Shown in pieces: positions 1-20,316 of a stretch of DNA of 32,985 bases. The stretch covers positions 1 through 32,985 of the forward strand of contig CASDWO010000029.1 in assembly GCA_949284575.1 (NCBI GenBank). The letters run 5' to 3'. A program made the position numbers and the translations under genes. The DNA comes from an uncultured bacterium. Its GTDB lineage: Bacteria > Bacillota_I > Bacilli_A > RF39 > UBA660. Numbering within the stretch: position 1 is the first letter of the stretch; the number at the start of each line of letters is the position of its first letter. The notes beneath the pieces were generated by a model, which was given only the letters and a program-made list of their open reading frames with translations, did no database searches and was not told the DNA's origin.

Positions 1-6
1 CACAAT

Positions 7-478
7 TATTTCCCGGGAAATATTTTCTCTATATGTTTCACGTGGAACATTGATCATTATCCTCTACTTTATTAAGTATAATTATTTCCCGGGAAATATT
101 TTCTCTATATGTTTCACGTGGAACATTGATCATTATCCTCTACTTTATTAAGTATAATTATTTCCCGGGAAATATTTTCTTTATATGTTTCACGTGGAAC
201 ATTAGTTATTATCTACTACTTTCTTAAACATAATTATTTCCCGGGAAATATTTTCTCTATATGTTTCACGTGGAACATTAATTATTATCTCTACTTTCTT
301 AAGTACAATTATTTCCCGGGAAATAATTTTCTTCATATGTTTCACGTGGAACATTGATCATTATCCTCTACTATATTAAGTATAATTATTTCCCAGGAAA
401 TATTTTCTTTATATGTTTCACGTGGAACATTAGTTATTATCTACTACTTTCTTAAACATAATTATTTCCCGGGAAATA
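7..478. promoter_or_regulatory. Seven Noc-binding-sequence (NBS) sites
   Basis: Sixteen-base palindromes TATTTCCCGGGAAATA lie at 7-22, 83-98, 159-174, 235-250, 310-325, 387-402 and 463-478. Six are perfect; the one at 387-402 has a single G to A change in the second half. The core ATTTCCCGGGAAAT is the consensus bound by the B. subtilis nucleoid-occlusion protein Noc. The window encodes a Noc homologue at 17131-18561 whose helix-turn-helix has Noc-type specificity residues. Binding itself is inferred from the motif match. Confidence 0.88.
34..429. promoter_or_regulatory. Six identical parS centromere sites
   Basis: TGTTTCACGTGGAACA occurs identically at 34-49, 110-125, 186-201, 262-277, 338-353 and 414-429. 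Its reverse complement, TGTTCCACGTGAAACA, is the classic B. subtilis parS bound by Spo0J/ParB. The flanking spacers vary between units while all six 16-mers are unchanged, which points to selection on the site. The expected seventh copy near 490 is absent. ParB is encoded at 19435-20316 and ParA at 18657-19445. Expected roles are loading CTP-dependent ParB clamps and recruiting SMC for origin segregation. Confidence 0.93.
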
Positions 479-515
479 ATTTTATTCATATTTTGTATAT
501 AAAATGAATAAATTC

Positions 516-549
516 AAAAAAAAGAAATAGATTATTCTAACTCTATTTC
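516..549 (-). terminator. Intrinsic terminator of the recF-gyrB-gyrA operon
   Basis: On the minus strand, GAAATAGA (549-542) and TCTATTTC (531-524) form an 8-bp stem with a 10-base loop, followed by eight U residues (523-516). The left arm lies inside the last gyrA codons, so the terminator overlaps the stop codon. It separates gyrA from the parS/NBS array. Confidence 0.85.
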
Positions 550-2967
550 CTCTTTATCCACAATAGCAATAGTTGCTACCTTTTGATTATCTTTTAAATG
601 AATTAATCTAACACCTTGTGTCGCCCTTTTTAACGTAGATATCTGTTCCATAGGCATTCTCATTATAACACCACTATCTGTAATAATCATTACGTCCTTC
701 TTATCACTTTCATCGGCACCTACACAATTAAGAGAAATCATTGATCCATTTTTATCAGTCATATTTAATGCCTTAACACCCTTACTTCCTCTATGTGTTA
801 ATCTATATTCATCAATACTTGTCTTCTTTCCATAACCATTTTCAGTTACTATTAAAACTTCTTGATCACCAGTAACAACATTGCCGCCAACAACTATGCT
901 TCCATCAAGATCAATTCCTTTAACGCCAGAAGTACCACGACCCATAGAACGAATTTCACTTTCCACAAATCTTACCATTCTACCATTACTTGCTCCAATT
1001 ATAACTTCGTTATCACCTGTAGTTTTATCCACAGAAATTAATTCATCATTATCCTTAAGTATTATTGCAATTTTTCCACTCTTTCGAATATTGTCAAATT
1101 CCCTTATTTCAGTACGTTTAACAAGACCATTTTTAGTAACAAATAACAAATATTTATAGTTTTCCACAGATGGATCTAAGCACACTATCGAACTAATGTT
1201 CTCACCATTTTCTAGTGATAATAAATTAACCACAGGTAGACCTTTAGATTGACGACTAAATTCTGGAATCTCATAGCCTTTAAGCCTATATACCCTTCCT
1301 TTATTAGAGAAAAATAAGATATAATCGTGTGTTTTCATTGAAATTAAATGCTTAACAAAATCTTCTTCATTTGTAGCCATCCCTTTAATACCAACGCCTC
1401 CACGATTTTGACTCTTATAAGTATCGGCTCTTAATCTTTTAATATAACCTTTATTAGTTAAAGTTACAATTACATCTTCAACAGGAATTAAAGATTCATC
1501 TTCAATATATTCTATCGCTGTCATATCAATATTAGTTCTTCTATCATCACCATATTTATCTTTAATTTCTAGAAGTTCTGTCTTAATAACATTAAGAATC
1601 TTAGCATCACTACTTAAAATATCTTTTAAATTAGCAATTAATTCAAGTAAATCATTAAGTTCATTTTCAATTTTTTCTCTTTCTAAACCAGTTAATCTTC
1701 TAAGTCTCATCTCTAAAATTGCATTCGCTTGAATTTCACTTAAACCAAACTTACTCATTAAGCCATTTCTAGCCTCTTCATCAGATTTAGAACCTCTAAT
1801 TAACTTAATTACTTCATCAATATGATCTAATGCTATCTTTAAACCTTCTAATATATGAACACGCTTTTCAGCATTATCTAAATCAAATTTAGTTCTTCTA
1901 ACAATAACTTCCCTTTGAAAGTCAATATACTTTGCAATAATATCTTTTAAACCTAGTGTTTTAGGAACACCTTGATCTAACATTAAGAAAATTATTCCAT
2001 AAGTAGTTTGAAATTGTGTATGTTTATAAAGCTTATTTAAAACAACTTGTGCATTTGCATCCTTTTTCAAGGTAATAGTAATCTTAATACCATCTTTTAA
2101 ATCCGAATGATAATCAGAAATACCCTCTATTATCTTATTATGAACAAGTTCTGCTACTTTATTTTTTAATTCCGATGTATTAACACCATAAGGCACTTCA
2201 TCAATAATTATATATTGTCTACCATTCTTCTCTTCAATTTGGGCTTTACTTCTAATAGTAATTGTTCCTCTACCAGTCTCATAAGCCTTTTTAATACCAC
2301 TATTTCCAAGTATTGAAGCACCTGTTGGAAAATCTGGACCTTTAATATATTGCATTAAACCGTCAACATCAATATCAGGATTATCAATGTATGCAACACA
2401 ACCATCTATAACCTCTTTTAAGTTATGAGGAGGTATATTTGTTGCCATACCAACTGCAATACCAGTAGTACCATTAACTAAAATATTAGGAAAACGTGAT
2501 GGTAAAACTACTGGTTCTTTAGAAGATTCATCAAAGTTAGACATAAAGTCAACTGTATTTTTATTAATATTTCTTAAAAGTTCAAGAGAAATCTTAGAAA
2601 GTCTAGCCTCGGTATAACGCATCGCTGCAGCCCCGTAACCTTCAATATTACCAAAGTTTCCATGCCCATCAATTAACATATATCTATAAGAGAAATCTTG
2701 AGCCATTCTAACCATCGCTTCATAAATTGAACTATCACCATGTGGATGATAATTACCCATAACTTCTCCGACCGTTTTAGCACACTTCTTATGAGGTTTA
2801 TCAGGAGTATAACCAGATTCAAACATTGAATATAAAATACGACGATGAACAGGCTTTAAACCATCCCTTAAATCAGGTATCGCTCTTGATGTAATAACAC
2901 TCATCGAATAATCAAGAAAAGAATCTTTTACTTCTTTTACTATATTATTTTGCTCTAATCTATCCAT
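532..2967 (-). CDS. gyrA: DNA gyrase subunit A
   Basis: This is the DNA breakage and rejoining subunit of gyrase, which introduces negative supercoils with GyrB as an A2B2 complex. It has 811 residues, close to the B. subtilis protein. The catalytic tyrosine is Tyr118 in [11 protein letters not shown]. The quinolone-resistance region reads [10 protein letters not shown] with Ser79 and Glu83, the drug-sensitive type. The GyrA box that marks gyrase rather than topoisomerase IV is QNRGGVG at about 520-526, followed by the beta-pinwheel C-terminal domain. The start is an ATG preceded by GGGAGG, 11 bases after the gyrB stop, so the two are co-transcribed. A terminator overlaps the stop codon. Confidence 0.98.
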
Positions 2968-6146: not shown

Positions 6147-6596
6147 CTATCTAGCTTTACGATTTCTTATGATTGACTCTAATCTACTTGCTCTCATAAC
6201 TTGATTATTAAAAGAATTATAGGAAATATTAAGAGTGATTTTCTTATTATTTTTAAATTCTACTATAGTATTACCATCTTTTCCCTTAGTATATTTTTTT
6301 AAGTTCTTTAAAGATATCCAACTACAATCATCATCTGCTGGACTAGATGTAGGGAAAAATATTAAATTATTAGCATCTTCTATCAAAATTGGCAACTTAT
6401 AACCACTATTTAATATATTTTTTGCTCCCTCTTTTCTTCCTGGATAAGAACTTCCAAAATATTTACAACTATAATCTACTATTTCTAAAGGTTTTTGAGA
6501 AACTTCATAATTACCATCATCCTCCAAAACAATAGAATTCCAAATATCATTAGGCAAAATAGCCAAAGTCTCATCATTAATTTCATATTCTTTCAT
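6147..6596 (-). CDS. comK: ComK-family competence transcription factor, short form
   Basis: In B. subtilis, ComK activates DNA-uptake and recombination genes. Conserved ComK blocks appear in order along 149 residues: YEINDETLAILP (4-15), KPLEIVDYSCKYFGSSYPGR (35-54), FFPTSSPADDDCSWIS (80-95) and ISYNSFNNQVMRA (124-136). B. subtilis ComK has 192 residues. This protein ends about 17 residues after the NQVxR block, so it lacks the tail that carries the FMLYPK motif recognised by MecA for ClpCP degradation and that is needed for full activation. The terminator right after the stop shows the short end is not a frameshift. The start has a GAAAGGGG Shine-Dalgarno sequence. The position between dnaN and recF is unusual. 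Homology is clear; a role in competence is inferred. Confidence 0.88.
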   Translation of the reverse strand: MKEYEINDETLAILPNDIWNSIVLEDDGNYEVSQKPLEIVDYSCKYFGSSYPGRKEGAKNILNSGYKLPILIEDANNLIFFPTSSPADDDCSWISLKNLKKYTKGKDGNTIVEFKNNKKITLNISYNSFNNQVMRASRLESIIRNRKAR

Positions 6597-8032: not shown

Positions 8033-9415
8033 TTAAGGTTTTAAGTCATTTTCTAATTTTTTAATAATTGCTGCTAAATCACTATTGTTTTTCATTTCTA
8101 ATTCAATTTTTTCAACAGAATGCATTACTGTAGAATGATCTTTTCCTCCAAATTCTGTTCCTATTTTTGGAAATGATTCACTAGTTAGTTTTCTACATAA
8201 ATACATAGCAATTTGTCTTGGAAAAGCAATATTACTGCTTCGCTTCTTGCTTCTTATATCCTCTGTAGAAATTTGAAAATATTCAGCGACGACTTTTTGT
8301 ATTCTTGTAATATCATTCTTCTCCCCTAGCCCTTTACTTATAAAGTCTTTTAAAGCTTCTATTGCTAAATTAATATCTATTTTTGCACCTCCCATAATTG
8401 TAGAATATGCAACTAATCTCGTAATAGAGCCCTCTAATTGTCTAACATCACTCCCCATATTAGAAGCAATATATTCAATAATTTCTTCTGAAATATCCGT
8501 TTCAAAATTACCTGCAATAATTTTTTTTCTTAATATTTCTTTTCTAAGCTCAAAATCAGGCGGATAAATATTAACTGTAAGGCCCCAACAAAATCTAGTT
8601 CTAAGGCGCTCTTCTAAAAGTTTTAAATCATTTGGAGACCTATCAGATGATATTATTATTTGTTTAGAGTCATTATATAAATTAGTAAAGGTGTGGAAAA
8701 ACTCTTGTTGTGTTTGCGTTGCACCACCTAAAAACTGAATATCATCGATAATTAAGACATCTATATTACGATACTTATTTTTAAAAAAATCTATATAACT
8801 AAAATTAGTCCCTGAATCATCCTTTTTATTAATTCCTACAAAATCATCTCTAAATTGATCACTTGTAACATATAAAACTCTTCTATTAGAGTTATTAACA
8901 ATATAATTACCTATGGCATGCATTAAATGTGTCTTCCCTAACCCACTATTTCCATATATAAAAAGTGGATTATACATCTTACCAGGATTTTCTGCTACCG
9001 ATAAAGCAGCTGCTTGAGCAAATTTATTACTATTACCTACAATAAAATTTTCAAAATTATATTTAGGATTAAGATTAGAGCGTTCTTTAAAAGCCTTAGG
9101 AACTCCCTCTTCTTTATTATCTACACTTGTTTCCAGTTTTTCTTTTTTTTTCTCTTCCGCTTTTTCTTTAATTTCATCTGGTAATAAAAAACTAAGTTCA
9201 AAGTTTGTCCCTGTAACTTTATTTAAAGCTTCTTTAATTAAATCAAAATAATTATCCGATAAATGTTTCTTATGAATAGACATAGGAACTTCAATAATTG
9301 CCGTACCCTCTTCTAAAGCTATTAATTTTACTTCACTAAACCAGGTTTCAAAAGCTAAAGATGAAAGCTCATCCTTAATTTCTTTAAGGACATTCTGCCA
9401 TAGAATTTCTACATT
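8033..9415 (-). CDS. dnaA: Chromosomal replication initiator DnaA
   Basis: This AAA+ protein binds DnaA boxes and melts the origin. The chosen start is the GTG at 9415 (MNVEILWQNV), giving 460 residues. An in-frame ATG at 9454 overlaps the -10 box TATAAT and so would precede the transcript, while GGGAGG sits 7 bases before the GTG. Domain I contains the FETWF motif. Walker A is GNSGLGKT (about 155-162) and Walker B is LIIDDIQF with Asp224-Asp225. The C-terminal DNA-binding signature is DHSTVMHSVEKI at about 426-437. The linker between domains I and III is short and rich in Lys and Glu. DnaA boxes on both sides suggest autoregulation. Confidence 0.97.
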   Translation of the reverse strand, partial: NVEILWQNVLKEIKDELSSLAFETWFSEVKLIALEEGTAIIEVPMSIHKKHLSDNYFDLIKEALNKVTGTNFELSFLLPDEIKEKAEEKKKEKLETSVDNKEEGVPKAFKERSNLNPKYNFENFIVGNSNKFAQAAALSVAENPGKMYNPLFIYGNSGLGKTHLMHAIGNYIVNNSNRRVLYVTSDQFRDDFVGINKKDDSGTNFSYIDFFKNKYRNIDVLIIDDIQFLGGATQTQQEFFHTFTNLYNDSKQIIISSDRSPNDLKLLEERLRTRFCWGLTVNIYPPDFELRKEILRKKIIAGNFETDISEEIIEYIASNMGSDVRQLEGSITRLVAYSTIMGGAKIDINLAIEALKDFISKGLGEKNDITRIQKVVAEYFQISTEDIRSKKRSSNIAFPRQIAMYLCRKLTSESFPKIGTEFGGKDHSTVMHSVEKIELEMKNNSDLAAIIKKLENDLKP

Positions 9416-9452
9416 CACCTTATCACCTCCCGCCTGAAATTCATAAATCACC

Positions 9453-9479
9453 ATTATAATACTCTAATTTTGTGGAAAA
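9453..9479 (-). promoter_or_regulatory. dnaA promoter overlapped by a DnaA box
   Basis: The -10 box TATAAT occupies 9458-9453 on the minus strand. The expected -35 region is weak and is covered by the DnaA-box-like sequence TTTTCCACA (9479-9471). Binding of DnaA there would block RNA polymerase, a standard autorepression layout. Confidence 0.6.
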
Positions 9480-16397: not shown

Positions 16398-17048
16398 ATG
16401 ACTATTGAAGAATTTATAAAAGAAGTAGAAGCTTTAGGTTTAAAAGTAACAAAAGAAAAACTAGAACAACTAGATATTATTTATAATACCTTAGTAGAAA
16501 CTAATAAAACAATGAATCTAACAAGAATAACAGAAAAAGATGATGTCTATTTAAAACATTTCTATGATAGTTTGACTCTAGCCAAAGTATATGACTTATC
16601 TAAAGTTAATACTCTTTGTGATATTGGAACAGGAGCAGGTTTCCCAGGACTTGTCTTAAAAATATTCTATCCCAATTTAGAAATAACTTTAGTAGATTCT
16701 CTTTTAAAAAGAGTAAATTATCTTAACAACTTAATAGATAAATTACAATTAACCGCTATAAAGGCCTATCATATAAGAGCAGAAGATTTAATTAGTGATG
16801 GTAAAAAGTTTGATATCGTAACAGCAAGAGCCGTAGCAAATTTACCTAAATTATTATTATGGACCATGCCTTTAGTAAATAAAAATGGTAGTTTCTTAGC
16901 TATGAAAGGAAATGTTTTAGAAGAGTTAGAACTATCTAAAGATATTATGAAAAAACATAATTGGTATATTAATAAAAAGGATGTATTTAAATTACCAAAT
17001 AAAGAAGATATACGAACAATTTTAGAAATAAAACATCAAAAAAATTAA
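16398..17048 (+). CDS. rsmG: 16S rRNA (guanine-527-N7)-methyltransferase RsmG (GidB)
   Basis: This methylates N7 of G527 in the 530 loop of 16S rRNA, using S-adenosylmethionine. It has 216 residues. The cofactor motif is CDIGTGAGFPG at 74-84, followed by the acidic TLVDS strand and the VTARAVANLPKLL block. The ATG begins on the base after the mnmG stop, so translation is coupled. It is the last gene of the mnmE operon; no clear terminator was seen before the noc promoter. Confidence 0.96.
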   Translation: MTIEEFIKEVEALGLKVTKEKLEQLDIIYNTLVETNKTMNLTRITEKDDVYLKHFYDSLTLAKVYDLSKVNTLCDIGTGAGFPGLVLKIFYPNLEITLVDSLLKRVNYLNNLIDKLQLTAIKAYHIRAEDLISDGKKFDIVTARAVANLPKLLLWTMPLVNKNGSFLAMKGNVLEELELSKDIMKKHNWYINKKDVFKLPNKEDIRTILEIKHQKN

Positions 17049-17079
17049 ATAAAACCTAGCAAACTAGTACAATTAATGA

Positions 17080-17085
17080 TATAAT
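17080..17085 (+). promoter_or_regulatory. Putative noc promoter -10 box
   Basis: TATAAT lies 45 bases before the noc start, in the 82-base gap after rsmG. No good -35 hexamer is visible at the normal distance, so noc may also be reached by read-through from rsmG. Confidence 0.5.
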
Positions 17086-17130
17086 GAGATTAGTAAAAAA
17101 ATAAAGTATAGAATAAAGAGGGGATTAAAT

Positions 17131-18561
17131 ATGGATACACAAGGAAATGAAGTAGTATATCTACATTTAGATGATATAATTCCTAATAGATTTCAACCTC
17201 GTCAAGTATTTGATGAGAAAGCACTAAAAGAATTAGCTGTTTCTATTAAAGAACATGGAGTAATTCAACCAATTATTGTACGTAATATAGGCAATAAATA
17301 CGAAATAATTGCTGGAGAACGTCGTTATAAAGCTTCCGCTATGGCTGGTCTTACGACAATACCTGCTATTGTTCGCAATTTAGATGATAAAGAAAGTAGC
17401 AAAGTTGCACTTCTTGAAAACTTACAACGTAAAAACCTAAATCCTATTGAAGAAGCTAAGACATATCAAAAAATTCTTGAATTAGATCAAATGACTCAAG
17501 AAGAACTAGCTAAAACTATGGGAAAAAGTCAAGGAGCAGTTGCTAATAAACTAAGACTATTATCTTTAACTGATGAAGTACAGGATGCTCTTTTAAAAGA
17601 ACAAATATCCGAAAGACATGCTAGAGCTCTTTTAAATACAAAGGATCCAAATCTTCAAAAACAACTATTGAAGGAGATAATAAATAATAAAATGACTGTA
17701 AAAGAGTTAGAAGAGAAACTAAGACCTAAAGAAGAACTTAGTACTAACATTGATACTAATACTAATATTCCATTAAATAACAATATTACGCCTATTAATA
17801 TAGGAACAAAACAGATAGATCAAACTCCAAATAATCAATTTAATTTTAATCAAAGCTCAGGTATTGATTATTCAACTCCACCTAAATTTATTGATTATGG
17901 CGTTCCTGATATCAACAATAATTTAGAAAGTACTGCCGATAAACCAATAGATTTAGATGCTTTAAAAGATCAAGCAAAAGATATCAATGTTATAGAAGAA
18001 AAACCAAATATTGATGCCTTTTTTAAAGCTACACCTAAAGAGGAAGAAAAAGAAACACCTCCTAGTACCTTTAAATTTTTTGCAACAGAACCTGAGACTA
18101 AAGAAGATAATAATAATCAAGAAGAAACATCATCTTCTTCTATCTTTCAAAATATTCCAACTCCAATTCAAACTCCAACTGGAGCAACTACATCTTCAAT
18201 TCCTGTTGATCCATTTGCTTTAAATGAAGAGACAAAGAACATAAATGACGATACTAGTACATCAATGGATAAGTTGTTAGCAGGAGTAGAAAAGAAAGAA
18301 GAAAATAACGTTTCTAAAATGACAACTTTTGATAACTTTAATAATCCTTTTGCTAATAATCCAATATTTAAAGATAATATAGAACAACCAAAAACTAATG
18401 TAGATAATGATAAACCTAAATATACCTTAAATGAATCAATAAATATGATTAGAGAAAAAATAAAAGAAATAGAAGCTAGTGGTTTTAAAACAGAAGTAGA
18501 AGAAATGGATTTTGCTAATAATTATCAAATAGTTATCAAAATAGCCAAAGAAAACCAATAA
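17131..18561 (+). CDS. noc: Nucleoid occlusion protein Noc, with long disordered linker and no membrane-targeting N-terminus
   Basis: This is a ParB-family CTP-switch protein; in B. subtilis it binds NBS sites and keeps the division septum off the nucleoid. The ParB-like CTP-binding domain has NRFQPRQVF (19-27), GERRYKA (62-68) and ENLQR (96-100). The helix-turn-helix has Noc-type specificity residues Gln134 and Lys140 (GKSQGAVANKLRLL) and Arg162 (ISERHARAL). The C-terminal dimer domain is 431-476 and matches B. subtilis Noc. Two oddities: the protein starts right at the core, lacking the N-terminal amphipathic helix that tethers Noc to the membrane, and residues 203-430 are a low-complexity linker, making it 476 residues instead of about 283. 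GAGGGG supports the start; no upstream in-frame ATG exists before a stop at 17077. Confidence 0.93.
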   Translation: MDTQGNEVVYLHLDDIIPNRFQPRQVFDEKALKELAVSIKEHGVIQPIIVRNIGNKYEIIAGERRYKASAMAGLTTIPAIVRNLDDKESSKVALLENLQRKNLNPIEEAKTYQKILELDQMTQEELAKTMGKSQGAVANKLRLLSLTDEVQDALLKEQISERHARALLNTKDPNLQKQLLKEIINNKMTVKELEEKLRPKEELSTNIDTNTNIPLNNNITPINIGTKQIDQTPNNQFNFNQSSGIDYSTPPKFIDYGVPDINNNLESTADKPIDLDALKDQAKDINVIEEKPNIDAFFKATPKEEEKETPPSTFKFFATEPETKEDNNNQEETSSSSIFQNIPTPIQTPTGATTSSIPVDPFALNEETKNINDDTSTSMDKLLAGVEKKEENNVSKMTTFDNFNNPFANNPIFKDNIEQPKTNVDNDKPKYTLNESINMIREKIKEIEASGFKTEVEEMDFANNYQIVIKIAKENQ

Positions 18562-18585
18562 AAGTAGATTACCTCTACTTTTTTT
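18561..18585 (+). terminator. Intrinsic terminator after noc
   Basis: AAAGTAGA (18561-18568) and TCTACTTT (18574-18581) form a perfect 8-bp stem with loop TTACC, followed by more T residues. It begins at the last base of the noc stop codon. Confidence 0.85.
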
Positions 18586-18595
18586 GCTAAAAATG

Positions 18596-18624
18596 TTTTC
18601 ATAAAACTATATTTTTGATACAAT
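18596..18624 (+). promoter_or_regulatory. parA-parB promoter
   Basis: The -35 TTTTCA (18596-18601) and -10 TACAAT (18619-18624) are 17 bases apart, just after the noc terminator and 32 bases before parA. It indicates that parAB is transcribed apart from noc. Confidence 0.6.
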
Positions 18625-18656
18625 AATTAAGATGAAAAAAAGAAGAGAGTGATAAT

Positions 18657-19445
18657 ATGGCAAAAGTAATTTCCTTAGTTAATCAAAAAGGTGGTGTAGG
18701 TAAGACTACAACCAGTATCAATTTATCTGCTTCTTTAGCATTCCTAGGAAAAAAAGTTCTATTAATTGATTTAGATCCCCAAGGAAATACCACAACAGGT
18801 GTAGGAATAAATAAAGCTGATATTGATTTAAGCGTTTATGATGTCTTAACAAATAGATGTACCACTAAAGATGCGATAATAAAAACAAAATATAAACAAC
18901 TATATGTTTTACCGGCAACAATAAATTTAGCAGGTCTTGATATAGAATTACTTGAAAAAAGTCAAAGTGAAAAAGGTTTTGCAAAGGGAGCTCAACTTAA
19001 ATATCATATAGAAGAATTAAAAGATGAGAATTTTGATTATATTATAATAGATTGTCCTCCTTCATTAGGTTTAATTACTACCAATGCTTTAACAGCAAGC
19101 AATTCCGTTATTATTCCTGTTCAATGTGAATTTTTTGCCTTAGAAGGAATAATGCAATTACTAAATACAATAAGATTAGCTCAAAAACAATTAAATCCTA
19201 ATCTTGATATAGAAGGTGTTTTATTAACAATGCTTGACTCTAGAACTAATCTTGGTTTTGAAGTAGTAGACGATATAAGGAAATTTTTTAAAGAAAAAGT
19301 ATATAATACTATTATTCCTCGCTTAATCCGTCTAACCGAAGCTCCATCACATGGCGAGCCTATAATAGTCTATGATCCTAAGAGTAAAGGGTCTGAAGCA
19401 TATTTGAATTTGGCAAAGGAAGTGATTGATAGAAATGGAAAATAA
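18657..19445 (+). CDS. parA: Chromosome-partitioning ATPase ParA (Soj)
   Basis: This deviant-Walker ATPase forms ATP-bound dimers on the nucleoid and moves ParB-parS complexes; in B. subtilis Soj also regulates DnaA. It has 262 residues. Walker A is KGGVGKTT (11-18) with the signature lysine, followed by LLIDLDPQGN and the Walker B strand YIIIDCPPSLG. The short N-terminus without a helix-turn-helix marks it as chromosomal type Ib. It overlaps the start of parB, so the two are coupled. Confidence 0.97.
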   Translation: MAKVISLVNQKGGVGKTTTSINLSASLAFLGKKVLLIDLDPQGNTTTGVGINKADIDLSVYDVLTNRCTTKDAIIKTKYKQLYVLPATINLAGLDIELLEKSQSEKGFAKGAQLKYHIEELKDENFDYIIIDCPPSLGLITTNALTASNSVIIPVQCEFFALEGIMQLLNTIRLAQKQLNPNLDIEGVLLTMLDSRTNLGFEVVDDIRKFFKEKVYNTIIPRLIRLTEAPSHGEPIIVYDPKSKGSEAYLNLAKEVIDRNGK

Positions 19446-20316
19446 AAGAAGAGCTTTAGGTAGAGGTTTAGAAGAACTATTTAATAGTGAACCTTTAAAC
19501 TTAGCTCAAGTAGAAGAAGAAATTATTAATAATACCCCAAAAGATCAAATCATAGAGTTAAATATTGATGAATTAAGAAGTAATCCTTATCAGCCAAGAA
19601 AAAACTTTGATGAAGAAAGCTTAAAAGAATTAGCTTCCTCTATTAAAGAACATGGTGTTTTTCAACCTATAATTGCTAAAAAAAGCGTAAAAGGTTATGA
19701 AATAGTAGCAGGAGAACGTCGTGTTAAAGCTAGTAAATTAGCAGGACTAACTAAAATTCCTGCCATAGTTAAAGATTTTAGTGATGAAGAGATGATGGAA
19801 GTAGCACTTCTTGAAAATCTTCAACGTGAAAATTTAAGTGCTCTAGAAGAAGCCGAAGCCTATAATTCATTAAAGAAAAACTTAAATCTAACTCAGGAAG
19901 AATTAGCTTTAAAAGTAGGAAAATCAAGAAGTCATGTAACAAATATGCTAGGTTTATTAAACTTACCATCAGAAATAAAAGATGAAATAGTAAAAGGCGA
20001 ACTTAGTATGGGGCATGCTAGAGTTTTAAGTAAACTAGAAGATAAAGATCAAGTAATTGACTTAGCTGATAAAGTAATAAATGAAAATCTAAGTGTTAGA
20101 AAACTAGAAGAATTAACAAACTCTAAAGAAATATTTCAACGAAAAAAAGAAATAAAACCTAAAGTATCTAAAACTAATGAATTTTCTTATCTTGAAAATG
20201 ATCTTTGTGAAAAACTAGGAACAAAAGTCAAAATAAAAAACAATAAACTTGAGATTAGTTTTACTAACATTAATGATTTAACTAGATTACTTGAAATAAT
20301 GCACTTAGATAAGTAA
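19435..20316 (+). CDS. parB: Chromosome-partitioning protein ParB (Spo0J)
   Basis: This is a CTP-dependent DNA clamp that loads at parS, slides onto flanking DNA and recruits SMC. The preferred start is the ATG at 19435 (MENKRRALGRGLEELF, 293 residues). A TTG three codons earlier is possible, but the partial Shine-Dalgarno sequence GGAAG is only 3 bases before it. The N-terminal helix carrying LGRGLEELF (8-16) is the ParA-stimulating peptide. The CTP-binding motifs are GERR (93-96) and ENLQR (127-131). The helix-turn-helix has ParB-type residues Arg165 (GKSRSHVTN) and Gly193 (SMGHARVL). This fits the six consensus parS sites at the left end of the window. Confidence 0.96.
   Translation: MENKRRALGRGLEELFNSEPLNLAQVEEEIINNTPKDQIIELNIDELRSNPYQPRKNFDEESLKELASSIKEHGVFQPIIAKKSVKGYEIVAGERRVKASKLAGLTKIPAIVKDFSDEEMMEVALLENLQRENLSALEEAEAYNSLKKNLNLTQEELALKVGKSRSHVTNMLGLLNLPSEIKDEIVKGELSMGHARVLSKLEDKDQVIDLADKVINENLSVRKLEELTNSKEIFQRKKEIKPKVSKTNEFSYLENDLCEKLGTKVKIKNNKLEISFTNINDLTRLLEIMHLDK

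Follow-up and report, generated by a model that had tools for sequence, protein, structure and literature searches.

Noc is understood as a dispersed, membrane-bound guard of the chromosome that arose from ParB. In Bacillus subtilis, about 70 Noc-binding sites (NBS) lie around most of the chromosome, and an N-terminal amphipathic helix, predicted in every Noc examined, is needed for membrane binding and division inhibition (PMC4331003). B. subtilis Noc and Spo0J also jointly delay Z rings (PMC6852036), and the gene order there is rsmG-noc-parA-parB. Staphylococcus aureus is not known to have a Min system. Its NBS are biased to the origin, with 41 loci, all but one spread over the 1.4-Mb origin-proximal half, and its Noc, which associates with the membrane, also restrains replication initiation (PMC5540599); no NBS/parS array is mentioned there in what was read. 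ParB and Noc are CTP-dependent sliding clamps in other species (PMC8429893), and one lysine at position 179 or 184, together with Q173 and R201, suffices for NBS preference (PMC7383237). In chromosomal ParABS centromeres with clustered parS, the sites lie near the origin and are served by ParA and a ParB with the LGRGL motif.

In an uncultured gut-type bacterium (lineage Bacteria; Bacillota_I; Bacilli_A; RF39; UBA660), sites for both proteins are built into one such cluster. The window analysed here is the whole of contig CASDWO010000029.1 (32,985 nucleotides) from a 1.48-Mb draft genome of 110 contigs (GCA_949284575.1). Tandem Repeats Finder (period 76, 6.3 copies, 90% matches) and direct reading show that its first 483 bases contain seven NBS 16-mers (TATTTCCCGGGAAATA) alternating with six identical parS 16-mers (TGTTTCACGTGGAACA, whose complement TGTTCCACGTGAAACA is the usual parS form). 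The features are as follows (no strand is given for the array, the NBS or the ComK-family gene).

4..483, interleaved NBS/parS tandem array, 6.3 copies of a 76-bp unit, truncated by the contig end
7..22, NBS 1, perfect
34..49, minus strand, parS 1
83..98, NBS 2, perfect
110..125, minus strand, parS 2
159..174, NBS 3, perfect
186..201, minus strand, parS 3
235..250, NBS 4, perfect
262..277, minus strand, parS 4
310..325, NBS 5, perfect
338..353, minus strand, parS 5
387..402, NBS 6, one mismatch (CCCAGG)
414..429, minus strand, parS 6
463..478, NBS 7, perfect
532..2967, minus strand, gyrA, whose 3′ end borders the array, the position conserved in the family
6147..6596, ComK-family gene (PF06338, E 5.7e-48), between dnaN and recF in the origin gene group, as across the family
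8033..9454, minus strand, dnaA, the origin marker (an ORF used as tblastn reference), about 7.5 kb from the array
17131..18561, plus strand, Noc orthologue, 476 aa, with ParB_N and HTH_ParB domains, a predicted disordered linker and a C-terminal alpha-beta-beta domain
18657..19445, plus strand, ParA (Soj-like)
19426..20316, plus strand, ParB (Spo0J-like), with the LGRGL ParA-binding motif and parS-type residues R173/G201

The array reported in the preliminary description is therefore real, although that description had all the Noc-type palindromes perfect in uniform 76-bp units, whereas six of seven are perfect and the NBS steps are 76, 76, 76, 75, 77 and 76 bp. All parS steps are 76 bp. The centres are 27-28 bp apart on one side and 48-49 bp on the other. 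Another contig of the genome, C86, begins with five more NBS (two with one mismatch) and four more parS in 75-bp units, followed by SRP RNA (Rfam RF00169, 61.8 bits), tadA and dnaX. As gyrA-[sites]-tadA-dnaX is contiguous in relatives, the two contigs most likely flank one longer array. All exact and one-mismatch sites of either kind found in the genome lie in these two contig ends, while reversed-pattern controls at up to two mismatches give at most two hits per strand. A search of a phage collection gave no match to the array.

Because the contig ends inside the array, in this genome and in several relatives, an assembly or repeat artefact had to be considered, and absence from related genomes had been named beforehand as a refuting outcome. 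For the family this explanation is refuted. Independent genomes show clusters spanned by single contigs between gyrA and dnaX with different repeat units, and two other members of the genus have alternating arrays at the same place with a unit of ~125 bp. In the family, which consists of Bacilli known only from MAGs, an exact NBS with an exact parS at 21-51 bp between centres occurs in 83 of 386 genomes and 52 of 150 genera, with zero reversed-pattern hits. A wide distribution is rejected; outside the family only one genome, of another family and with a single pair, has such a pair among 256 genomes of a class sample and 355 of a phylum sample, which overlap and are all of the same class. Named hits are mostly uncultured Bacilli, Tenericutes and Erysipelotrichaceae MAGs, including Ca. 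Onthousia and Ca. Scybalousia, with a few labelled Clostridia, but these names cannot show absence elsewhere. In nearly all of these loci the sites lie in the gyrA-tadA-dnaX spacers.

The confinement is also seen in 80 family genomes for which the region around gyrA was taken whatever its sites. parS lie in the spacers of 77 of 80. Of 172 exact NBS in these whole genomes, 127 lie in the regions within about 20 kb of gyrA, which are about 1.4% of the sequence (about 2.4 expected from region size). NBS in this family are thus few, usually 1-5 exact sites per genome, and mostly near gyrA, unlike the B. subtilis set distributed around the chromosome except the terminus and the S. aureus set, which is not one cluster. 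Among genomes in which noc was not found, 4 of 11 have NBS, against 154 of 182 of the others (Fisher p 0.0007), but this deserves little weight since a gene missing from a draft genome may be an assembly gap.

One rival explanation is that both site types are merely selected to be close to the origin in a gene-poor spacer, with ParB and Noc working independently. First, many family members have parS clusters with NBS some hundred bases or some kb away, and the 83 genomes with a close pair are a minority. Second, one genome has an NBS-only tandem array downstream of gyrA with a ~71-bp unit, although a member of the same genus has an alternating NBS/parS array, so close pairing is not obligatory. 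Third, NBS also occur without parS inside dnaX and an rsmI-like gene. Roughly 4 in 10 or more of the 61 dnaX genes examined carry an NBS (exact or one mismatch; 30 sites in all, sometimes two in a row) about 1.0-1.2 kb after the start. These nearly always read I-S-R-E-I or I-S-Q-E-I, with codons TCC and CGG, which make up 2.6% of Ser and 1.0% of Arg codons in gyrA of the same genomes; this argues that the DNA site is selected, a point in favour of the composite centromere proposed below. A further NBS recurs about 5.7-6.1 kb past the dnaX start, in several genomes within a stretch that would read GNRKISISREI, which resembles RsmI.

However, NBS lie nearer parS than random placement within the same spacers predicts: 39 of 101 are within 40 bp (26.5 expected, 3 of 2000 simulations as high) and 67 of 101 within 60 bp (42.1 expected, 0 of 2000). 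NBS-parS centre distances collapsed by genus (85 distances, 50 genera) are phased at about 10.5 bp, with Rayleigh z 11.3, jitter-null p 0.0002 (0.001 when the period is scanned) and z about 6.5 with one distance per genus, whereas parS-parS neighbours show no phasing (z 1.45, n 46). The genera are related, so that these p values are optimistic. Same-face phasing is not what is seen; the preferred spacing is about n+0.4 turns (25.4, 35.9, 46.4 and 56.9 bp), and the window's own 27/49-bp spacings lie 1.6-2.6 bp off this optimum. Strict alternation as a family rule is rejected, since it exceeds shuffles only because of the five clearest arrays (85 unlike neighbours against 82.1 expected in the other 31 spacers), although in the own genus it is kept while the unit differs (76 against ~125 bp). 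Mere neighbourhood therefore seems unlikely, though possible.

Both cognate proteins are encoded in the window, where rsmG-noc-parA-parB occupies 16398-20316; noc-parA-parB recurs in relatives. The Noc protein has the ParB_N CTPase domain and ParB-type HTH (PF02195 and PF17762), its best PDB match is Noc (7ng0, E 4e-62), and in a tree it groups with Bacillus and Geobacillus Noc apart from ParB at 100/98 support; six sequences in this tree are Noc by their residues and lack of the ParA motif. It scores 290.1 bits against TIGR04285, below the curated cut-off of 315. It carries Q173, K179, S184 and R201 (Caulobacter numbering); Q and K occur in nearly all relatives read, with R201 replaced by H in one. 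In the window protein and in all relatives read, the chain has too few residues ahead of the NRFQPR motif for the N-terminal amphipathic helix, which is also lacking in the AlphaFold model, although an alternative membrane contact remains possible. The protein also lacks the ParA-binding motif. Instead there is a predicted disordered linker of about 230 residues, with short conserved motifs in an otherwise variable tail (PKFINYGE, DLDSLLN and YFKTPDL; 17731-18430) that look like binding motifs for a protein partner of unknown identity. The structured part of the model matches Noc crystal structures best, though overall model confidence is low (pLDDT 60). MinC is absent from 58 of 58 family genomes searched, while six control genomes were positive.

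The most likely reading, held with only moderate confidence, is that the array is the chromosome's centromere-like site in a composite form. ParB dimers would load at parS and Noc dimers at the interspersed NBS, and both clamps would spread over the same origin-proximal DNA as one mixed domain. ParB would supply segregation through ParA and SMC loading, and Noc would add a second function through its long tail and own C-terminal domain, acting only at the origin because its sites occur almost only there, so that Noc in this family is probably an origin-bound partner of ParB and not a chromosome-wide guard. The most likely second function is coupling origin position to division, or to replication start, in cells without MinC; given the joint action of Noc and Spo0J in B. 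subtilis, an origin-centred division signal is plausible. The sites, their confinement to the origin region, the orthology and specificity residues of both proteins, the missing helix and the non-random nearness and phasing rest on the analysis itself, whereas binding of ParB and Noc to these sites, clamp loading, any ParB-Noc contact, division inhibition and the downstream role are inferred, without binding, localisation or phenotype data for this family.

The interpretation in the preliminary description, a mixed centromere and nucleoid-occlusion locus with cooperative loading or a joint complex, is thus only partly supported. Both site types match the known consensus, the cognate proteins have the right DNA-recognition residues, and the intermixing at the origin recurs across a family, but nucleoid occlusion in the B. 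subtilis sense is not supported: there are no dispersed NBS in this genome, and loss of the helix removes the experimentally supported route to division inhibition. Because these two defining features are missing, the locus is not regarded as ordinary nucleoid occlusion. For cooperative loading or a joint complex, the nearer-than-random placement and helical phasing are only indirect evidence.

Two further possibilities overlap in part with the composite centromere. Noc clamps loaded between parS sites may limit or shape ParB spreading and SMC loading, with no role in division. The intermixed sites, the shared clamp family, the missing helix and the confinement of NBS to the ParB domain fit this view, but it lacks direct evidence, the conserved tail motifs suggest some other partner, and it seems unlikely. 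Alternatively, the array may be a titrating or signalling site for replication initiation, as reported for S. aureus Noc. Its distance of about 7.5 kb from dnaA and the origin-weighted NBS of S. aureus would agree with this, but the spread of the S. aureus loci does not, and this reading is more doubtful still.

None of the papers found, within a search limited to open-licence papers, describes an NBS/parS array, an origin-confined NBS set of this kind or a helix-less Noc family. A bolder reading, possible but tentative, is a heterotypic centromere, in which two different CTP-clamp proteins load from helically phased neighbouring sites and interact on the DNA, and in which Noc has been changed from a chromosome-wide, membrane-bound division blocker into an origin-bound partner of ParB, or keeps an ancestral, pre-membrane role. 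This family is a large natural group in which Noc keeps its DNA-recognition residues but, in the members inspected, has no membrane helix, and has few sites away from the centromere. This separates DNA recognition from membrane anchoring, offers a natural test of what Noc does without dispersed sites or the helix, and provides ready-made DNA with alternating, phased sites on which to ask whether two different CTP clamps help, block or ignore each other. It also bears on how Noc evolved from ParB.
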